33,627 nucleotides of DNA from a virus, in the IMG/VR virus record IMGVR_UViG_3300012178_000009, positions 1-33,627 of that record. One strand, written 5' to 3'. Both the position numbers and the translations under genes were made by a program. The notes beneath the pieces are model-generated. The model searched no databases and was not told the DNA's origin. It was given only the letters and a program-made list of their open reading frames with translations. Shown one piece after another: positions 12,216 through 24,220 of the stretch (positions within the stretch are counted from its first letter, which is position 1; every line of letters begins with the position of its first letter).

Positions 12216-12493
12216 AAAATACCTCCATCAGTTTCAACCAAACATTCCTGCGAATCTCGCAAGCTCGATCCGCAGACTTCGGCGTTATTTAAAACCTGAT
12301 AGTGGGTCGCATACCTCCGAGCTGCCCTTATCCTTAATTTCAAGAGCTGGGCATTAATGTTGGCCCGTGACGTATTCGGAGAATACAACCCCTCATCAAT
12401 GAGTCGGCGGATAAGAGCGCCGGAGGAAAGCTTTTTGACTTCAGGCCAATTTCTGGCCATGAACTCTATTCGTTGGCGACGGTCTGAGGTCAT
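12212..12493 (-). CDS. Small helical protein, possible DNA-binding (93 aa)
   Basis: A 93-aa basic protein. Residues 10-50 (FMARNWPEVKKLSSGALIRRLIDEGLYSPNTSRANINAQLLKLR in segments) have the helix-loop-helix spacing of a small winged or helix-turn-helix fold, but no signature allows a family call. It overlaps the end of the 475-aa gene and the start of the Cys-rich gene. Confidence 0.5.
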   Translation of the reverse strand: MTSDRRQRIEFMARNWPEVKKLSSGALIRRLIDEGLYSPNTSRANINAQLLKLRIRAARRYATHYQVLNNAEVCGSSLRDSQECLVETDGGIL

Positions 12494-13917
12494 AACAAGT
12501 CCTCCGTCCGAACCTCGTTCCTCGGTCCGGACAAGTCAGCGTTGTATCGCAGATGCATTTTCATGCCTCTTCCCCCTCTTCCTCTTTTATCTGAATGGTG
12601 AGCAGGCGCGTTTCCGCATTCATCAGACTTGGAATTACTTCCTGCGGGTCTACCCTTTCCCCTTTTTGACTCCTTATCCTGTTTCGCCTCCTGAATCACT
12701 CCCCTCTCCTGCTCACTCATTCCGGCAAGCCTTTCCAGAACCTTTTCCTCATCCAGATTCGGCTGTGCTTCAGCATTGACCTTTATCAAAGGCCATAGGC
12801 GGCTTTTCCAGGTAGGGAATCCTTCAAGAAAAGTTCCATCAAAATCCGGTTCATGTTTATCATATTCAAACCCGGCAAGCCATTCCGCGTCAGTATTCGG
12901 CCAGTCCGGCAAGACCTCCGCCCGAATTGCGGGTCGAATATCCTCCCCTGTAATTCCCTCGAACGTGTCCAGCATCTCCACTAGGAAATGACTACGGGCC
13001 ACAAATAGACCTTCTACCTGTTTTCTACGGTCCCGGATCACTTTGACAATCTTCCGGGCTTGTGTTCGGTTCAGCTTCACTCCGTAAGCCTTGGCAGTAG
13101 ATTTCCATAGTGTCAGAATCTCTGCATCCAGATTCTTTCGTACCTCTCTTTTCTCGGAATCAATCCGTTTCCGGTGATGATCTTCCTGCCCCTCTCGATA
13201 CTTTTTAATCCGCTTATCCTCGGCCTGATATTCCTTTGATGCCTGTATCTCCTTCGCTTTCAGGAAGAGTTCATCCATGCCGGGTTGCAATTCGACCTGA
13301 AGCTCCCAAAGCTTCTGACCCAGCTCCTTTGCTCTCGGAGAATTCCGAACATCTGCAGGAGACTTCCCCGCCTTCAATTCTTTCTGTTCTTGCTTCTCGA
13401 TCTGCTCCCGGATCTGCTCCATCTGAAATTCGATTCTATCACCCCGCTCCACTTTTATCCTTTTCCACTCCCGCCGCCTTTTCTGTTGCGCCTTTTTCCG
13501 TGCCTCCTCGAAAGCCTGTATTTCCGGAAAATCCTTTCCCTCTGTCCATCGCTTTTCGTCCTCATGGGCAGCCCCGGCCGCGTTCCATTCCTTGACGTTC
13601 TTTAGTTCCAGGTCGGAATGTGCCGAAAGGGTTTTTTCAATCGCCCATCCGAATTCCGATCCCCTCCCGCCGATTCCTCCCCACAAGCTTTCGATCCGGT
13701 CCGGTGGCGCGTTTAAGTCTGGGGCAGGATAGCCATCTTGTGTGTCCGGAGTCAGTTCCAGCAGATTCCCTGCATCCGTCACCAACCGCCACACCTTACC
13801 GTGGATCGTATTTATGTGTTGAAACGCCATGACAGCCACGAATCGGCGGTCATGCTCCATTATTCCTTTAACGGTCACAGCAGGGCGTGGGTTGAGGCTT
13901 CCATGATGCATTTTCAT
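12490..13917 (-). CDS. Large charged coiled-coil protein in a direct-repeat-flanked insertion (475 aa)
   Basis: The N-terminal ~110 residues (KGIMEHDRRFVAVMAFQHINTIHGKVWRLVT, then LWGGIGGRGSEFGWAIEKTLSAH) look folded. The middle (130-290) is very charged and helical (KKAQQKRRREWKRIKVERGDRIEFQ). A folded-looking C-terminal part follows (PDWPNTDAEWLAGFEYDKHEPDFDGTFLEGFPTWKS). I do not recognise it. The last ~45 codons read through the second copy of a 74-bp direct repeat in a shifted frame and then continue into an older 24-codon frame (MKMHLRYNADLSG), so the natural C-terminus was probably altered on insertion. No HNH, GIY-YIG or transposase motif is visible. Confidence 0.62.
   Translation of the reverse strand: MKMHHGSLNPRPAVTVKGIMEHDRRFVAVMAFQHINTIHGKVWRLVTDAGNLLELTPDTQDGYPAPDLNAPPDRIESLWGGIGGRGSEFGWAIEKTLSAHSDLELKNVKEWNAAGAAHEDEKRWTEGKDFPEIQAFEEARKKAQQKRRREWKRIKVERGDRIEFQMEQIREQIEKQEQKELKAGKSPADVRNSPRAKELGQKLWELQVELQPGMDELFLKAKEIQASKEYQAEDKRIKKYREGQEDHHRKRIDSEKREVRKNLDAEILTLWKSTAKAYGVKLNRTQARKIVKVIRDRRKQVEGLFVARSHFLVEMLDTFEGITGEDIRPAIRAEVLPDWPNTDAEWLAGFEYDKHEPDFDGTFLEGFPTWKSRLWPLIKVNAEAQPNLDEEKVLERLAGMSEQERGVIQEAKQDKESKRGKGRPAGSNSKSDECGNAPAHHSDKRGRGGRGMKMHLRYNADLSGPRNEVRTEDLL
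12553..12626. repeat. 74-bp direct repeat, downstream copy
   Basis: It matches 13906-13979 at 72 of 74 positions (tt for cc is the only visible difference). This copy holds the coding end of the 121-aa gene out of frame inside the 475-aa gene, and an ATG (12564) in the same context as the real start at 13917. The in-frame 24-codon remnant runs 12564-12490. Confidence 0.92.
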
Positions 13918-13979
13918 GCCTCTTCCCCCTCTTCCTCTTCCATCTGAATGGTGAGCAGGCGCGTTTCCGCATTCATCAG
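13906..13979. repeat. 74-bp direct repeat, upstream copy
   Basis: This copy covers the 3' end of the 121-aa gene (ALMNAETRLLTIQMEEEEGEEA) and the start codon of the 475-aa gene. With the other copy it brackets about 1.28 kb of unique DNA. Confidence 0.92.
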
Positions 13980-14279
13980 GGCGCGGATTTCACCCACCAG
14001 TTCGCGCAGGCTGTTGTCGGGTTTGCCTTCTACGGCCAACTCCTCCATGCACTCTTCCCGGTCGTGGCGCAGCACGGTGACGATGGCTTGCATGATGGGG
14101 TGCTCACGGTTGCGGCGCAGAATCTTGGCCGCCTCGCGGTAATTCAAGCCTTTATTCCATTTGGTGAGGTAGCGCAGGGCTTTGGCCTGCTCTTCCTGCA
14201 GCTTCGCCTGCATCTCTGCGGCGGCGGCTTCCATATCCGGCGGGGTGTCAGTCGCCGGGGTGTCGTTTTCGGGGGTCAT
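13914..14279 (-). CDS. Small acidic-ended helical protein upstream of the insertion (121 aa)
   Basis: A 121-aa, almost wholly helical protein (MEAAAAEMQAKLQEEQAKALRYLTKWNKG, NYREAAKILRRNREHPIMQAIVTVLRHDREECMEEL in segments) with a Glu-rich C-terminus. A clear AGGAGA Shine-Dalgarno precedes the ATG. It lies right after the portal gene, with a dispersed palindrome 43 nt upstream of its start. It could be a small virion or head-completion protein; no family is recognised. Confidence 0.65.
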   Translation of the reverse strand: MTPENDTPATDTPPDMEAAAAEMQAKLQEEQAKALRYLTKWNKGLNYREAAKILRRNREHPIMQAIVTVLRHDREECMEELAVEGKPDNSLRELVGEIRALMNAETRLLTIQMEEEEGEEA

Positions 14280-17642: not shown

Positions 17643-19640
17643 TCAATGGCATCCCCCACCCACAGTCTTGTAAAAGTCATCGCCGCCGGTGTCGTGGAGA
17701 TCCTGGGCGAAGAAGTAGCGGATCAGGTCGATAAAATCTTTGCAGGCTCCCTTCTGCCCGTCATCCCCGGTCCACACCGAAAGCGCAAAGATGCTGTTGA
17801 AACATTCCTCGGCGATGAAGAAGCGCGGGCGGTTGGTGTAACTGATCGGCTCCTTTTCGTCGTAGCTGAGACGGTCATTGATCAGGTGTACGGCGGACTG
17901 CGGATTATTGTCGGCCAGGCTCCCGGCGGGTCCCAGATGCACGGGAATAAAATCCAGTCCAATATCGTCCAGTTCGTCGATCAAGGTGAAGGTGCCCTCC
18001 GCGCTGGCGGTGGCGGTGTTGCCGGCCCGGGCATCAATGTAGCGCTCCACCACTTGTTCCCCGGTTTCAGTGTCGGGCTCCCAGTCTTTGGGATCGGGGT
18101 TTTCGGTGAGGTCGATCTCCCAGTTTTCCAATCGGGCCAGTTCCTTTTTATAATCGAGCAGATTGAATCCGAAGGGGTTTTGTGCGGGTCCCTTTTTGCC
18201 GTCTTTCTTTTGCCCGGAGACTTCCGCCCAGGGGCCGGGTTGGCCTACGCCGGGAATCACATAGTTTCCGGGCCATTCGCGGTACAGGTACACATCTCCA
18301 CCCACCACCCGGAACCAGCCGAATACGAAGTTGCGGCCGCCGGAGGGATCGCAGATCATGTAGTTGGTGCCGCCTTTGGGGATTTTGTCGCTGGGGAGGG
18401 TGTGCACCTTGGGATTGAACTTGGGAAAGCGGTTGCCGCTGGTTTTATGCGCCACGCCATAAAAGCGCTCCTGCACAAAAGCCATAGATGTACCCAGCAC
18501 CCGCTCATACACGGCGGAGGGGTTGCCGTAGGGGTTGTCGTTGGAGTGGAAAAACAGCACCGCTTTCTTGTATTCGATCTGGCCGCCGCGCATCACTCCT
18601 AGGCAGCGCATCACCCGGGGCACCTGCTTGAACGCCCGGCCTGCGGGGATCTCGGGCTGCGACCTGGTGCCTTTGATCCAGTTGTGCACGTTTTCGGGGA
18701 TGGATCGTGGACCATAAATCTTGCTCTCGGCAAAAGCTTCCGGACTTTCAAATCCAAGGGAGGCCCACTCCAGCGGCTCCCCGGTGTCATCGGGACAGGC
18801 AAAGGCCACTGCCATGCGGGTTTTATCTGCGCCATCCTGAAACATGCGGACCAGTTCCGAATATCCTTGCACCGGGGTTTGGGTGATACAGATTTTTCCT
18901 TCCCGGGTGGCAGTACGAAACTCCAGCGTCTCCAACCAGTCGGAGGGTATCAACTCGTCCGCCCAACCCCAGTCCAGCTCTCCCCCCTCAATGGTGTCCG
19001 ATTTGTCGCTGGAGTAGTATTTGAATTTGAGCACACCTTCCAGGTGGTTCACGATCTTGTTGTCTGAGTATCCCGGACCTGATTTAAAACTCATGTACTC
19101 CGGATTTCCGTCCAATATCCGGGCATTGCGTTTTGAAATGGGCATGTGGGTATTGATCAGCGGCTGCTGTTCATCTTTGCTTCGGCCTGCATCTGCATGA
19201 AAACACCACACGGTTTGTTTTTTGGCTCGGTACAGCATCTGCACCGATCTCTTGGCCGCGTACTGACTTTTACTACCCCGGTTTGCACCGCTTATCAGCA
19301 GCGTGCTGACGGGTGCATTGAATCCCAAACATTCGCGCATGGCCTTGCTCCACATCTCCCATGTCCATTCCTCCCCGAACTCGCGGTTGATCTCCGCCAG
19401 AAAACTCTGATCGTAACATTCCAACCCCAGCAGCGCATCCGCCACTTTCCAGATATGCGGCTCCCATCCGTACACCAGCGGATCCTTTTCCTCTCGGTAA
19501 ATCGCCAGGGTGCGGCGTTCAAAGTATTCGGCGGCATCTTCTTCATTTTCATCCACCTCATCGGCGGTGAGCAGGGGGATCACCGGATGAAAGTCAAAAT
19601 TCACCGGCAAAGTTTCTGCTTCTGCAACCGCGCCGGTCAT
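17643..19640 (-). CDS. terL: Terminase large subunit
   Basis: A 665-aa packaging motor. An ATPase domain has a deviant Walker A GANRGSKS (118-125), preceded by an adenine-binding-type aromatic segment, Walker B LDWGWADE (222-229) and a coupling motif CITQTP (251-256). The nuclease domain opens with MICDPSGG (first acidic residue at Asp431) and later acidic positions (RYIDARAGN; the final KDFIDLIRYFF region). It cuts concatemers and translocates DNA into the prohead with the portal. It is followed by the small unknown gene and portal. The ATG overlaps the stop of the RecA-fold gene (ATGA). No TerS gene is obvious next to it; the HTH protein at 24977 is one candidate. Confidence 0.9.
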   Translation of the reverse strand: MTGAVAEAETLPVNFDFHPVIPLLTADEVDENEEDAAEYFERRTLAIYREEKDPLVYGWEPHIWKVADALLGLECYDQSFLAEINREFGEEWTWEMWSKAMRECLGFNAPVSTLLISGANRGSKSQYAAKRSVQMLYRAKKQTVWCFHADAGRSKDEQQPLINTHMPISKRNARILDGNPEYMSFKSGPGYSDNKIVNHLEGVLKFKYYSSDKSDTIEGGELDWGWADELIPSDWLETLEFRTATREGKICITQTPVQGYSELVRMFQDGADKTRMAVAFACPDDTGEPLEWASLGFESPEAFAESKIYGPRSIPENVHNWIKGTRSQPEIPAGRAFKQVPRVMRCLGVMRGGQIEYKKAVLFFHSNDNPYGNPSAVYERVLGTSMAFVQERFYGVAHKTSGNRFPKFNPKVHTLPSDKIPKGGTNYMICDPSGGRNFVFGWFRVVGGDVYLYREWPGNYVIPGVGQPGPWAEVSGQKKDGKKGPAQNPFGFNLLDYKKELARLENWEIDLTENPDPKDWEPDTETGEQVVERYIDARAGNTATASAEGTFTLIDELDDIGLDFIPVHLGPAGSLADNNPQSAVHLINDRLSYDEKEPISYTNRPRFFIAEECFNSIFALSVWTGDDGQKGACKDFIDLIRYFFAQDLHDTGGDDFYKTVGGGCH

Positions 19641-20383
19641 TTTAAGTTAACCTCATCTTCCTCGTTTAAATCACGAAACATAAACCGATCCGCCTGAAAC
19701 CATAGCTCCAACGGAATAACTTCTCCACCACGCAAAACATCCAGATATACCTTCCATCCCCTCACGCCTCTACTGGGCCTGATGGTTCCAATCATGATCG
19801 TAGAGGCACACTCAACCTTCAATTTTGGATCCACCGGAGAATCCGCCTCCGTTCCTAAAATCGGAATCCCAAGATCAACACCCAACGCATGCAGTTGTTT
19901 TGCAGAATTGTTCGCCAAAGCCAAGTGGTCGCCCAAAAGATCATCATCCATCAAAATGCAGTTCGATAAATTATCCACACTCGCCGCCACAATCTTTTCA
20001 ATAAAAAATCTCTTGCGAATCCATTTACATACCACTTCTTGATCCCAGTCTTTTTCCATCATAAACATAGGCCAATTACAGATTTCCTTCGAAGCCTCAT
20101 AAGCCTTTTTTAACTCATCCTTTGTTGCCTTCCCTGTATTTAAATTGCTAAGCGCAACATCCGAATGCCGTGAGACATCTCGGTTTAATACATTGGACAT
20201 CGTCATATTCAGACACGCCCTGGCTGTGGCGACACCACGCCCAGAGATCGCCGTCATGATTGTCCCTTCCAAACTGGATTTACCTGAACTGCACGGCCCC
20301 GCCACAACATGAAGGCCCGGCTCCAATCCTCCACCCAGTGCCACATCCAAAGATTCTATTCCGGTTTTTATTCTTGGTTTCAT
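19637..20383 (-). CDS. RecA-fold ATPase, DnaB/KaiC-like (248 aa)
   Basis: The N-terminus has TGIESLDVALGGGLEPGLHVVAG, typical of RecA/DnaB/KaiC-type ATPases, then Walker A GPCSSGKSS (29-37). A Walker B-like strand follows at about 131-139 (IVAASVDNLS), and later a sensor-like strand and basic residues (GTIRPSRGVRG). It has no primase domain. It follows the primase-helicase directly and precedes terminase, so it may be a second helicase-type motor, a loader-like accessory or a recombination ATPase. The nearest named family (RepA-like hexameric helicase or AAA_25) cannot be decided without a search. Confidence 0.72.
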   Translation of the reverse strand: MKPRIKTGIESLDVALGGGLEPGLHVVAGPCSSGKSSLEGTIMTAISGRGVATARACLNMTMSNVLNRDVSRHSDVALSNLNTGKATKDELKKAYEASKEICNWPMFMMEKDWDQEVVCKWIRKRFFIEKIVAASVDNLSNCILMDDDLLGDHLALANNSAKQLHALGVDLGIPILGTEADSPVDPKLKVECASTIMIGTIRPSRGVRGWKVYLDVLRGGEVIPLELWFQADRFMFRDLNEEDEVNLK

Positions 20384-20395
20384 AATTCAGCTGCA

Positions 20396-22336
20396 TCATT
20401 TATTTTGTTCAGACACATCCACATATACTTTCGGTTGATCCGATTCCTTGTTCATAAATTGGAAAGTCTCAGGATCAAAATACAAGTACTTCCCTGGTTC
20501 CTCCCCTGTCTCACGTTGCTTTTGAATTTGAATCTTCGCATCCCCCACATGCAAAAACGGTTTTTCCATTTTATCCGCTTGATCAAATTCCCCACGAACA
20601 CGTAACGAACGCGCCTCTGCCAATTTTTGCTCCTTTTCCTGATTCCTCCACACCGAAATCACGCTATCCGCAATGTTCGGAATCCCACTCGTACCACTGA
20701 TGTCATACTTCAACGGCTCCTTCTTTTCAGCCGGACGGTTCATCGTCGGTTTCTTCGAGTGGCACACCATATGCATCGTCACATTATGCCTATGCGCAAA
20801 TGCTTTAAACAACTTGCATACCTCAAGTTGCCCCGCGTAATCCTCCAGCCCCACATCCGAAAGCATCATCAAGCTATCCACCACAAAATGCTGTGTGCCC
20901 CACTTCCGATACGCATACTCAAACGCCTCCAGCAATTGGCGGCCGTCCGTTTCCCCTACCTTGTCATACACGATAAAATACTGATCAAACCAAGCCAAAA
21001 CCTTTTGCACCTGCCGGGCATGTTCCGGTTTGTTTTTAGCCATCGCCTGGCGGGCCATATTCCGAAACGTCTTACGGGCCGGAATCTCCAGCGAAGCCAC
21101 GCAAATCTTTTTCCCATGATACGCAAAATCCACCATGCACTGATTTTGCATCATCGTTTTCCCATGACCATTGTAGCCATGCCACACAATGAATTCACCC
21201 GGTCGAAACGCAAACGGTAAATTCCAAGGCAAAGGATCTCCCTTCGGTCTGTCGCTCTCCTCCGGATAAAACTCCCACCAAATATCCTGGGCAAATTCAC
21301 TCGGTTTCTTCAGTTCCGAAGGCGTAAAATCCCGTGCCTCACACACCAACCTGTCCAACGGCACGCCAGCACACAAGGCCTCATTCGCATCCTTCACCCC
21401 CTCCGGCCATAATACTTCTTTACACCGCGCATAGCCCAACCTTGGCAACAACTGATCCTTCGCCTTTTGGCCGGGTTCATCCCCGTCCAACGCCAGCACG
21501 ATATCCGTAAACCGCTCCAGCCAATCATGGTCATGCTCTAACCACGCATCATGCGGGCTCTCCCGCCCCTCCTGCACCGCTTGGGCTCCCTCCGGTAAAC
21601 TCACTCCCGTGAGTGCTCCGCCCTGCGTCAGGGCCATCGCATCCAGCTCCCCCTCCGTCAATCCAATCATCCCCGCCGTATCCGCCACCGCCTGCTGACC
21701 AAACAGCAATTTCGGAGCACCAAACGCATATTCTTCCGCATCCCGCATACTCGGTTTCTGAAACGTATTTTTTTTAGCCACAATATCCCGATATTTCAAC
21801 CGCACCAGATTTCCCTGTGCATCAAAAAACGGAAACACCACCCAGTTGATCGGGTCAGGCCCCTGCTTCGAAAGCGGAAACCGAGCCTCCCCCAGCCGAT
21901 ACAGCCGGATCACCCCCTCCGAAAGTCCCCGCGTTTTTGTCAGCCAATTCCAAACCGGAGATCCTTCCACCACCTCCGCATAGCTCAGACTTTTCAATTT
22001 CGTCGTATCCACCTTTTTCGCGGGGGTCGCCATTCTCCTTGGCAGCGTATCCGCCACCCCCAGCCAATCCTTCGCCTCCCGGATCGCCTCTTTAAACTCC
22101 AGGCCATGCCGCTTCAGCCACAGCTCCAGCAGATTGCTTCCAGCCTCCCCCGTAGCAAAATCCTTCCACACCCCCACCTTCGATCCAAGCGTCCCCACCA
22201 CCAAGCTCTCGCCCGCCTCCCCCGCCAGATTTCCAATCTTAAATTCTGGACCCTGCTGCTTGCCAGCTGGAAACAAATACGCACAGCACTCCGCCGCCCG
22301 ATCATTCAACAATTGTTTTACTTCCGAAGCATCCAT
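20396..22336 (-). CDS. Bifunctional primase-helicase (TOPRIM + DnaB-type)
   Basis: A 646-aa protein from the start at 22336 (MDASEVKQ), chosen because it overlaps the upstream stop in TAATG. An N-terminal domain (GVWKDFATGEAGSNLLEL) is of the type seen in phage primase-helicases but lacks a Cys zinc site. A TOPRIM domain has GLTEGELDA (acid at ~228-232) and LALDGDEPG (~284-289), then KDANEAL. The DnaB-type helicase domain has Walker A GYNGHGKT (~387-394), Walker B HFVVDSLMM, and a late motif SGTSGIPNIADSVISVWR. It resembles T7 gp4. It primes and unwinds at the fork. Upstream is the initiator gene with iterons, which makes this the replication block. Confidence 0.88.
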   Translation of the reverse strand: MDASEVKQLLNDRAAECCAYLFPAGKQQGPEFKIGNLAGEAGESLVVGTLGSKVGVWKDFATGEAGSNLLELWLKRHGLEFKEAIREAKDWLGVADTLPRRMATPAKKVDTTKLKSLSYAEVVEGSPVWNWLTKTRGLSEGVIRLYRLGEARFPLSKQGPDPINWVVFPFFDAQGNLVRLKYRDIVAKKNTFQKPSMRDAEEYAFGAPKLLFGQQAVADTAGMIGLTEGELDAMALTQGGALTGVSLPEGAQAVQEGRESPHDAWLEHDHDWLERFTDIVLALDGDEPGQKAKDQLLPRLGYARCKEVLWPEGVKDANEALCAGVPLDRLVCEARDFTPSELKKPSEFAQDIWWEFYPEESDRPKGDPLPWNLPFAFRPGEFIVWHGYNGHGKTMMQNQCMVDFAYHGKKICVASLEIPARKTFRNMARQAMAKNKPEHARQVQKVLAWFDQYFIVYDKVGETDGRQLLEAFEYAYRKWGTQHFVVDSLMMLSDVGLEDYAGQLEVCKLFKAFAHRHNVTMHMVCHSKKPTMNRPAEKKEPLKYDISGTSGIPNIADSVISVWRNQEKEQKLAEARSLRVRGEFDQADKMEKPFLHVGDAKIQIQKQRETGEEPGKYLYFDPETFQFMNKESDQPKVYVDVSEQNK

Positions 22337-23202
22337 TATTTTATCAACCCCTTTTCTTTCCAATATTTTTCATTCGCTGCGTTATACGCCTCCGCGTCCA
22401 CCTCTGACGTGTTCTGCTCGCCATCCGCCGCGCCACTCCAACCGCCGCCGCTTTTTTTATTTTTTCCGATTTCCCCCACATAAAAATCAGCATTGCTCAT
22501 GTACTTACGCAACATCCCCAGTGGATTCGGCCATGGGTCAACCATGCTCGCTGCATCTCCCGCAAACTGAGAAACCGCCTCCTCACGGTAAATCTTCGGA
22601 CACTTACGGATTTCCATCCCCGCCGCATCTGCCCGAAGCATCCAGTCATCACGAGCCTCCACCGCCTGGATCGCCAAACCTCCCAATTCCGAATCAGGGT
22701 ACACCCCAGAATGTGTGTGTGACCCCCCCACACACTTCTTCCCTTCTTCCCTTCTTAACTTATTATCTTTCTTAGTTAGTCGTCGCCCGTCCGTCGGTGG
22801 TCCGTCGGGGGTCCGTCGCCCGTCCGTCGGTGGTCCGTCGTTCTGTCCGTCGTTCTGTCCGTCGTTCTGTCCGTCATTTTTGGGAGGGTCAGAAACGTAA
22901 GCTACTGTATCATATAAGGTTGCAACTGTTCCACGTCTGTCGCCTTGAAAGTCACACGCTCCTACCTTCTGTAAGTCGCTTTTTGCAGTGCGATAACGCC
23001 TTTCGGTCCACTTCCATGCAGAAACGTCCGAAAAGCCCAAAACCGCCTGTCGTTTTTCAAGGTTCAAGGGGTTCCAGTCATCATTGTACCGTGCTCGATC
23101 CTGAATCAAAAGCAACAGTCTGAGAGCGTCCGGCTTCTCATGAATGAGCCAGCGTAAACGCTCCCCGCGCCAAGTCCTAAAGAATCCTTCTTTTTCAGCC
23201 AT
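22336..23202 (-). CDS. Replication initiator, lambda O-like with iteron-bearing linker (288 aa)
   Basis: The N-terminal ~110 residues read as a winged-helix DNA-binding domain (LLLLIQDRARYNDDWN, FSDVSAWKWTERRYRTAKSDLQKVG). A flexible linker (108-141) made of NDGQ and PPTDGRR units follows, then a C-terminal helicase/loader-interacting part. The linker DNA contains eight iterons (see the origin feature). In lambda, protein O carries ori inside its gene; the same layout is seen here with the primase-helicase as next gene. It is likely to bind the iterons and recruit the helicase. Overlaps both neighbours. Confidence 0.7.
   Translation of the reverse strand: MAEKEGFFRTWRGERLRWLIHEKPDALRLLLLIQDRARYNDDWNPLNLEKRQAVLGFSDVSAWKWTERRYRTAKSDLQKVGACDFQGDRRGTVATLYDTVAYVSDPPKNDGQNDGQNDGQNDGPPTDGRRTPDGPPTDGRRLTKKDNKLRREEGKKCVGGSHTHSGVYPDSELGGLAIQAVEARDDWMLRADAAGMEIRKCPKIYREEAVSQFAGDAASMVDPWPNPLGMLRKYMSNADFYVGEIGKNKKSGGGWSGAADGEQNTSEVDAEAYNAANEKYWKEKGLIK
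22745..22880. other. Candidate replication origin: eight iterons beside an AT-rich segment
   Basis: GTCCGTC recurs at 22789, 22800, 22811, 22822, 22833, 22845, 22857 and 22869. The first five are 11 bp apart, the last three intervals are 12 bp. Next to it (22755-22780) is an AT-rich tract (ttaacttattatctttcttag). An 11-bp unit shifts the frame, so the repeats cannot be kept for the peptide alone. This resembles the lambda ori layout of iterons plus AT-rich region inside O. Confidence 0.68.
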
Positions 23203-23539
23203 GGACAGCCTCCATGGTAAACAGATGGCGCGTTTTTTCTGTTAGGCTGATGATCTCTTCATCATCGATTTCGATGTATCCCTCGTTTTCCAACTGAACG
23301 AGAGCGGAATCCGCTGTCCCTCCGTATTGATATTCCGACTCCCCATAGAGATCCAGATGGTCATGTTTATGACTGCTGGAGGCCCCACAGGCCTCCTTTG
23401 CCGCCATAAGCAGTAGCATCATGTATTTCCGTTTCTCGTGAGAGAACGTGCCCATTGCCTCGCTGACTAGCCAGCCAGCAGGAACCTGTAGAATAGGGCC
23501 TTTCGGCCCTATGTTGTTTGGATTAGCACGTGCAATCAT
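23195..23539 (-). CDS. Small unknown protein, possible winged helix (114 aa)
   Basis: A 114-aa protein. Residues 35-65 (SHEKRKYMMLLLMAAKEACGAS) and 75-110 (SALVQLENEGYIEIDDEEIISLTEKTRHLFTME) have helix-helix-wing spacing. It starts at the overlap with the RHH-like gene (ATGA) and overlaps the initiator gene by 8 bases. It may regulate or assist initiation. No family recognised. Confidence 0.58.
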   Translation of the reverse strand: MIARANPNNIGPKGPILQVPAGWLVSEAMGTFSHEKRKYMMLLLMAAKEACGASSSHKHDHLDLYGESEYQYGGTADSALVQLENEGYIEIDDEEIISLTEKTRHLFTMEAVHG

Positions 23540-23739
23540 GCCACACCCCCTTCACGGCCATAGCCGTTCAGAAGCTCTCTGAATGCTTCAGTGTGGGTTT
23601 GCCCTGGCTTTCGTACTCGATCCAGGAGACGGCAATCCTCAGCCGTCAGGGTGATCCATTCCCGTGCGGGGGCTCTCAGGCCCGTTCGCCATCTAGGGGC
23701 TCCATACGCGCCATCGGCGCAGCTTCGTGCGTTCTTCAT
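23536..23739 (-). CDS. Small ribbon-helix-helix-like protein (67 aa)
   Basis: The start at 23739 (MKNARSCADG) is chosen for its AAAGGTGA Shine-Dalgarno. The C-terminal half (WITLTAEDCRLLDRVRKPGQTHTEAFRELLNGYG) has a strand, helix, turn, helix order like RHH DNA-binding proteins. The same frame remains open far upstream, but that part is not protein-like and covers the structured leader, so I end the gene here. As first gene of the replication operon it may be an autoregulator; that is inference. Confidence 0.55.
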   Translation of the reverse strand: MKNARSCADGAYGAPRWRTGLRAPAREWITLTAEDCRLLDRVRKPGQTHTEAFRELLNGYGREGGVA

Positions 23740-23802
23740 GTCAGTCACCTTTCTTGAGGTTACCAGACTCTTCCCCCCGGTTTGCCGTCCGGGTACAAAG
23801 AA

Positions 23803-23943
23803 GGGCCTTCGTTCGCTCGGCAAAGACCATGCAAGAACATGGTGATCCCGAAGGATCAACGAACTCAGGCCCAAAAGGGTGACATGAGGTTTCGCTCTTA
23901 CATGTGGTCTTTGCCGAGACTGCCCACATCCTGAACGAATCCC
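23803..23943 (-). ncRNA. Multi-branched structured RNA candidate in the replication leader
   Basis: Outer stem: GGG-(2)-TTCGTTC at 23803-23814 pairs with GAACGAA-(1)-CCC at 23933-23943. Inner stem: CTCGGCAAAGACCA (23816-23829) pairs perfectly with TGGTCTTTGCCGAG (23905-23918). Inside are TGATCC-CGAA-GGATCA (23843-23858), CCC-AAAA-GGG (23870-23879) and ACATG/CATGT (23882-23905). On the minus strand the second hairpin has loop TTCG closed by C-G, the stable UUCG tetraloop, which favours transcription from the minus strand. It lies ~65 nt 5' of the 23739 start. No family (tRNA, known riboswitch) is recognised. Confidence 0.6.
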
Positions 23944-23981
23944 ATGGTTTAAATCAAGGAAAATGTTTCTGTTTTTTTCTG

Positions 23982-23999
23982 GAGTGATATGATTCACTC
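23982..23999. promoter_or_regulatory. Operator-like palindrome covering an extended -10
   Basis: GAGTGA-TATGAT-TCACTC, a perfect 6-bp inverted repeat whose 6-bp centre is a TATGAT -10-type hexamer preceded by TGA (extended -10). It faces the plus-strand ATG at 24005, only 11 nt downstream. A poly-T tract (about 23971-23979) precedes it. This looks like a repressor site that would block the plus promoter. A weak minus-strand promoter across the same palindrome is also possible. Confidence 0.5.
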
Positions 24000-24004
24000 T
24001 TTCC

Positions 24005-24220
24005 ATGAAACCAATTACTGCCCCAATCCGTAAGTTTTTTTCAATCCTCCCAGGATGGATATTTATCATCGTGATGATCACCGCTGTAACCAAACATGTT
24101 TTGATAAGAAGATTAGAAATCTTTCCATTTTGGTTTTCACATAAGGCGTTAATGGCCCTGATGTTCCTCGTTGTTTTCTGGCGGTGGAATCCGCGCCTCG
24201 ATTTTAGAGACAAGGATTGA
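24005..24220 (+). CDS. Small two-helix membrane protein on the plus strand (71 aa)
   Basis: MKPITAPIRKFF followed by two predicted transmembrane helices, about 14-30 (ILPGWIFIIVMITAVTK) and 43-59 (WFSHKALMALMFLVVF), and a charged tail (NPRLDFRDKD). There is no Shine-Dalgarno, but an extended -10 sequence ends 11 nt before the ATG, so a near-leaderless message is possible. The opposite strand is also open, so it could be a shadow; its membrane pattern and promoter-like site argue for a real moron-type gene. It could be a superinfection or immunity membrane protein. Confidence 0.4.
   Translation: MKPITAPIRKFFSILPGWIFIIVMITAVTKHVLIRRLEIFPFWFSHKALMALMFLVVFWRWNPRLDFRDKD

Follow-up and report, generated by a model that had tools for sequence, protein, structure and literature searches.

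Locus and architecture of the predicted leader RNA

The stretch of DNA analysed here (the window) is the 33,627-base virus record IMGVR_UViG_3300012178_000009 of IMG/VR. Lytic genes lie on its minus strand and continue to position 3, and upstream of these is a 141-nt segment (23803-23943) that an initial annotation had put forward as a structured RNA candidate. Comparison with shuffled sequence, as that annotation had suggested, gives a minus-strand fold of -60.3 kcal/mol versus -42.8 kcal/mol for the shuffles (sd 4.0, n=200; z -4.4). This is well beyond the shuffled range and, together with 10 further distinct relatives, it bears out the proposal. The plus-strand fold reaches -53.9 kcal/mol (z -4.0 relative to shuffles). 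A plus-strand RNA with a lambda boxA-like CGCTCTTACA at 23893-23902 (+) was considered and rejected, as the motif is missing from the relatives L007 and L017. The region was also said to contain no credible gene, and we agree: the first codon of a 62-aa ORF (23741-23929) precedes the predicted transcription start, and L007 does not conserve the encoded residues, so that a coding reading was rejected.

A promoter is predicted on the minus strand at 23928-23957, consisting of a -35 box TTGATT (23957-23952), an 18-nt spacer and a weak -10 box CAGGAT (23933-23928), with transcription predicted to start near 23921. All 11 members of the RNA family possess a TTGA[CT] or TTTACA box located 35-37 nt ahead of the first base of the 5'-terminal hairpin P0, the -10 box being weak. 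From the position of the -35 box the RNA would begin at the base of P0/P1, and the 5' strand of the outer 10-bp closing stem drawn previously (~23943-23933) falls inside the predicted promoter, between the -35 and -10 boxes. This outer stem was discarded; its pairing is lost in L007 and L017, and its 3' strand corresponds to the segment b', which pairs with 23872-23860.

The whole structured leader spans ~156 nt (23766-23921, minus strand, as for all RNA features below), as delineated by the alignment of 11 distinct members and the covariance models R1 and R2; it thereby extends 3' of the limit drawn previously, to include the hairpin P3/P4. At the 5' end, P0 (23907-23920) is a GUCU-CGGCAA-AGAC hairpin whose loop carries the core of word a. 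Word a (23907-23918) is also the 5' strand of P1, pairing with a' (23827-23816). In the window this corresponds to a 14-bp inverted repeat without mismatch (23816-23829/23905-23918), and the 14-bp stem recognised previously is retained as P1, conserved and covarying in members. P1 is extended inward by P2 (5' strand 23895-23904, 3' strand 23828-23837). Within the P1 loop, b (23860-23872) is complementary to b' (23803-23815), corresponding to a 13-bp helix that crosses P1. The same loop contains P2b (23843-23858; UGAUCC-UUCG-GGAUCA), the UUCG hairpin of the initial annotation, which is present, conserved and covarying; its loop is UUCG or GAAA in several members. This is the one of the three hairpins proposed originally that is kept as drawn, since CCCTTTTGGG shares bases with b, and the CATG...CATG strand forms the 3' half of P2. 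The central strand continues from a' (23816-23827) directly into b', and the 3' part of b' matches b'' (GAAGAGUC, 23766-23773). The resulting helix P4, with a 5' strand (23800-23807) overlapping the 3' end of b', closes P3 (23776-23793; CCCGG-ACGGCAAA-CCGGG). The P3 loop holds a'' (CGGCAAA, 23787-23781), which repeats the core of a and is likewise complementary to a'.

A Shine-Dalgarno-like AAAGGTG (23746-23752) precedes the first downstream gene (23536-23739, 67 aa), for which no family match was found. The start codon is located 25-29 nt past the modelled RNA end in nine members; in L028 and L029 the scripted first ATG gave implausible frames of 2 and 19 aa, and an ATG further on, at about +23 and +29 respectively, was picked by eye. 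A possibly conserved hairpin at the Shine-Dalgarno site (P5) was seen by eye in several members, but its mean energy is only -6.0 compared to -4.5 for shuffles, and P5 is kept as tentative. Divergent from the RNA, a small hydrophobic ORF is present at 24005-24220 (+), with small hydrophobic ORFs in matching place and orientation in L007 and L030. Within the Rep-like gene (22336-23202), tandem direct repeats (11-nt x4 and 12-nt x3, GTCCGTCG core) at 22781-22878 are a candidate for an origin of replication like that of lambda O.

Family members, carriers and downstream genes

The RNA family comprises 11 distinct sequences, the window and 10 relatives (three phage contigs and seven Kiritimatiellota genomes). 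A protein search with the 714-aa gene retrieved contigs ~99% identical in structural genes, including L007 (L006 is the same stretch), in which the RNA element is ~80% identical to that of the window and the neighbouring replication genes are replaced. The replaced module corresponds to 19602-23689 of the window, suggestive of mosaic exchange beside the RNA. Elsewhere in the window, short segments of 12233-13987 are repeated or rearranged in L005 and L007 (several blastn pieces at one place). A search with the P1-arm pattern located L017 in a divergent phage and L018 in the Kiritimatiellota bacterium B12222. The hidden pairings bb' and a'' were first spotted by reading the window, L007, L017 and L018 side by side, and pair counts on these four sequences favoured P1, bb', P2b and P3. 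Covariance model R1 was built on bb', P2b and P3 only, and its search of 345 host-class genomes yielded six more members (E 2e-16 to 8e-8). With model R2, members score at least 95 bits in the class search, compared to ~20 bits or less for all else in the class. The eleventh member, L048, was found by sequence pattern and scores 84 bits with a model built without it; the RNA of L050 is a further copy of that in L024.

Several matches were set aside: the pattern matches L011, L012, L014 and L015 were judged on inspection to be chance, as were the genome matches L019 and L020, which lie inside genes; L046 and L049 reach 7 bits only, while L047 and L051 gave no score. L038 (28 bits, R1) and L039-L045 (17-20 bits, R2) were likewise rejected, given that members reach at least 84 bits (R2). 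These weak matches (17-28 bits) are in other genomes, and the alignments of some look like chance. No relative of the region was obtained by blastn of phage records or by a primase-helicase protein search in IMG/VR. A sample of 387 genomes across the phylum returned only the known members and the 28-bit match, and no member turned up among 247 genomes taken from the phylum to which a Bacteroidetes MAG belongs. The observed range constitutes a lower bound, since the searches consisted of exact patterns for IMG/VR and of models for the 345 class genomes and the samples of two phyla. The initial annotation could name no family for this RNA. At gathering score, Rfam gave no match in the window and, in the relatives, only a tRNA near L018; at E up to 10 no family matched over 23700-24050, and L007 gave one chance lncRNA match. 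The tRNA gene (L018:938-1009) immediately flanks the B12222 element and is a likely site of its integration. Judged by these searches, the family appears to be previously undescribed, with phages and phage-like elements as its carriers.

The genes behind the RNA differ among carriers. Replication genes follow it in the window, L007, L017 and L024; L025 has a transposition operon with a MuB-like ATPase, L027 places the RNA between the transposition and head genes of a Mu-like phage, and L028 has a Bro-N gene. In the B12222 element (L018) a single gene, a 206-aa ORF, separates the RNA from the element end. A replication control circuit, as suggested by the initial annotation, is hence not supported as the general role. 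Among the carriers, only the window, G004, G007 and G319 are clearly related phages, while two genes are common to G006 and G317. With E 1e-4 as threshold, the DNA examined (~5-60 kb per carrier) revealed no protein common to every carrier; the RNA thus probably has the host machinery, a ligand or itself as its partner.

A host target is a feature of processive antitermination leaders of the HK022 put or Bacillus EAR type, in which the RNA binds the host RNA polymerase at the exit channel and allows readthrough of a long operon. Such a role would be in keeping with an RNA that begins at the predicted transcription start, with the lack of a common phage protein and with the run of lytic genes downstream in the window; put acts without a phage protein at early promoters (PMC9378689). 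The same source describes put as ~70 nt with two stem-loops, compared to ~156 nt here. Furthermore, downstream intrinsic terminators are not in excess, the B12222 element offers a single 206-aa ORF to read through, and a fixed polymerase-binding RNA would not need conserved alternative pairings. We consider antitermination unlikely.

Covariation and mutually exclusive pairings

To assess the helices by a test not fitted to them, the 11 members were aligned by MAFFT on sequence alone, without use of the structure. The fraction of alignment cells paired was 95% for P0, 90% for P1, 88% for bb', 91% for a'a'', 83% for both P2b and P3, and 82% for P4, with double changes in 3/4, 8/12, 9/13, 5/7, 3/6, 4/5 and 5/8 pairs, respectively. 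P4 is the weakest helix. Slid control versions were 20-76% paired on this alignment; the separate counts made by the covariation tool agreed, with 0/500 shuffles reaching the observed values. On the R1-derived alignment, P1 has 96% of cells paired with 8/12 pairs changed on both sides, while a'a'' has 96% paired and 4/7 changed on both sides (slid a'a'' 23-50%, or 20-51% over both alignments). P1 and a'a'' provide independent tests because both are absent from model R1. While kinship among sequences can inflate covariation counts, the carriers are mostly unrelated. The helices do covary in homologous phages, where failure to do so was the observation named at the outset as arguing against a structured RNA. 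In the comparison of the window with L007, a G-to-C change in P1 is matched on the opposite arm, with the outer stem lost.

Permutation of own versus other members' partners gave p 5e-5 for each of a-a', b-b', a''-a' and P3 (10 members), the segment limits for these four tests having been set by eye, which favours own partners. The 5' strand of P2 binds its own partner at -12.1 kcal/mol compared to -5.9 kcal/mol with the partners of other members (p 5e-5, 11 members). The a'' word follows a' through six word types. G.U exceeds A.C at paired positions by 46 to 15, indicating that the minus strand is the RNA. A leader regulator on this strand had been anticipated, and it is further supported by the -35-like box, which fits a start at the first base of the RNA in 11/11 members.

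The same words could in principle act in DNA, with a, a' and a'' as operator or iteron sites for a repressor or a replication initiator: a, the inverted a' and a'' do resemble repeated sites and change together. This would leave the complementarity of b-b', P0, P2, P2b, P3 and P4 unexplained, and it does not account for the excess of G.U over A.C. In L026, a'' differs from a and still pairs a' via G.U, favouring RNA pairing over repeated protein sites. The tandem repeats in the Rep-like gene furthermore make a better origin candidate, and a DNA-level element is accordingly highly improbable.

Each of a and a'' matches a', and each of b and b'' matches b', so that the contiguous a'b' strand has duplicated partners on either side; the bases of a'b' are used in mutually exclusive ways. 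Such an arrangement is probably an RNA switch on lytic gene expression. In the proposed state A, a' would pair with a (P1, extended by P2), and P4, formed by the end of b' with b'', would close P3. In state B, a' would instead pair with the P3 loop a'' and b' with b, leaving a to fold on itself as P0. As states A and B are mutually exclusive, we propose that the leader acts as a toggle, and that toggling between the two would set expression of the operon behind it. We take both states to be used because the helices of each set covary; selection appears to act on both of the mutually exclusive folds. Our preferred reading, with a probability of roughly 0.55, is that temperate Kiritimatiellota phages open their lytic (early) operon with a two-state leader RNA that acts in cis.

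The nested minimum free energy fold includes P1 in all members. A crude energy sum, in which the kissing term is a duplex energy only and which serves as a plausibility check and not as evidence for switching, places the two states within ~2 kcal/mol of each other in 4/11 members (L007, L024, L026 and L028), with state B ~4-23 kcal/mol above the minimum in the window, L017, L018, L025, L027, L029 and L048. For L048 the minimum free energy was used, the forced-P1 figure being a constraint artefact. By the order of its segments, state B would require a kissing or pseudoknotted geometry. Judged by linker length, P1 and bb' could also coexist in one pseudoknot; such a third state would weaken the case for a toggle. 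Neither a terminator nor Shine-Dalgarno sequestration at the leader explains the output.

The choice between two conserved exclusive folds could also depend on a host factor or small molecule, which would make the leader a ligand-sensing riboswitch, and the absence of a common phage protein together with the placement of the RNA before differing genes can be viewed in that light. Conserved positions are mostly in helices or words with no obvious aptamer core, and within the searches made the family is confined to phage-like elements of one host class. A riboswitch thus seems quite unlikely.

Comparison with known systems

In trp-type attenuation leaders, successive segments pair alternatively. 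The two-state leader proposed here differs in that no leader peptide or U-tract terminator was found, and in that two segments swap together. STAXI, a pseudoknot motif, occurs close to DNA-manipulating genes of phage type and in some cases close to C4 RNAs (PMC2864571, Weinberg 2010). It consists of a repeated short pseudoknot, and no STAXI match was obtained here in the Rfam scan. HK022 putL/putR, with which early phage transcripts begin, is likewise a structured RNA that lacks an evident phage protein partner; put binds the beta' zinc-binding domain of RNA polymerase and suppresses termination. The -35 box ahead of the RNA in 11/11 members would fit a put-like placement, but the carrier operons are not all clearly early. 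In contrast to the two stem-loops of put, the present RNA contains at least seven helices, and the available part of PMC9378689 describes no conserved exclusive pairings for put.

The closest parallel is found in the C4 family (RF01695, with c4-a1b1 RF03163; P4 CI, P1/P7 C4), likewise a phage leader in which a middle strand is complementary to flanking word pairs, with word sequences that vary on a constant scaffold. The P4 CI RNA pairs with seqA upstream and seqC downstream, stopping transcription of the replication genes (PMC4825925); some of the leaders described here also precede replication genes. Processing and word specificity of C4 are described in PMC5320573, a 4-nt deviation between P1 and P7 altering specificity. 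As a control, Rfam found C4 (74.9 bits), isrK and c4-a1b1 in the P4 leader region, and a complementarity scan recovered the word pairs on both sides of C4. An antisense strand complementary to upstream and downstream word pairs in one transcript is present here as well, with covariation.

One rival reading based on this likeness is a trans-acting immunity RNA: processing of the leader would release a stable small RNA, and its a'b' strand would shut off the operon by pairing to a, b, a'' and b'' in leaders still being transcribed, be it from the resident phage or from a superinfecting one. The target words flank the complementary strand as in P4 and P1 (PMC4825925, PMC5320573), the words vary among members on a constant scaffold, and the window and its close relative L007 differ by coordinated G-to-C changes in all three words. 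Such a role is at odds with the contiguous P1 and P2, which hold a' in the same molecule, with the non-collinear element order and with the occurrence of the same word in three distant members. XRE-type repressors are encoded in the G100 and G057 elements, so immunity need not depend on the RNA. Immunity as the principal function is thus improbable; within the preferred cis-acting toggle, part of the action of the RNA may nonetheless occur in trans, as immunity.

The leader RNA described here also differs from C4 in its organisation. The C4 order is collinear, with targets a-b followed by antisense b'-a', whereas here the order is a-b, a'-b', a''-b''; with a'-b' in this order, pairing has to be of the kissing or pseudoknot type. 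C4 acts in trans as a separate small RNA of ~77 nt released by RNase P processing, compared to one compact ~156-nt leader whose antisense strand is partly held in P1. The C4 models (RF01695, RF03163) gave no gathering-score match in the window or relatives, none at E<=10 in the window stretch, and nothing above the cut-off in 10 carrier genomes/records; C4 and the present family show no sequence-structure match in either direction. A weak C4 match (L067 in G033 contig 31; 25.9 bits, cut-off 45) lies elsewhere in a carrier genome. Given the absence of a model match in either direction and the non-collinear order, membership of the C4 family fails, and by sequence comparison it is the complementarity logic of P4 CI and P1 C4 that is shared.

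The covarying helices and testable exclusive folds define a structured RNA family for Kiritimatiellota phages, whose hosts have almost no phage biology in the literature searched; we found no paper on prophages of this phylum. We tentatively suggest that these leaders might represent a phage riboregulator class of a new kind: one unbroken strand would exchange both of its partners together (a.a' + b'.b'' versus b.b' + a'.a''), and the words would serve as a specificity code, able to evolve, for controlling lysis or immunity to superinfection. Such a class would have been invented in phages of another bacterial phylum, independently of C4/CI. If the toggle is true, the design requirements of such control and the question of words as immunity groups become directly askable, and control of lytic operons by tripartite complementary words, as in P4 and P1, would have arisen twice, with differing topology.
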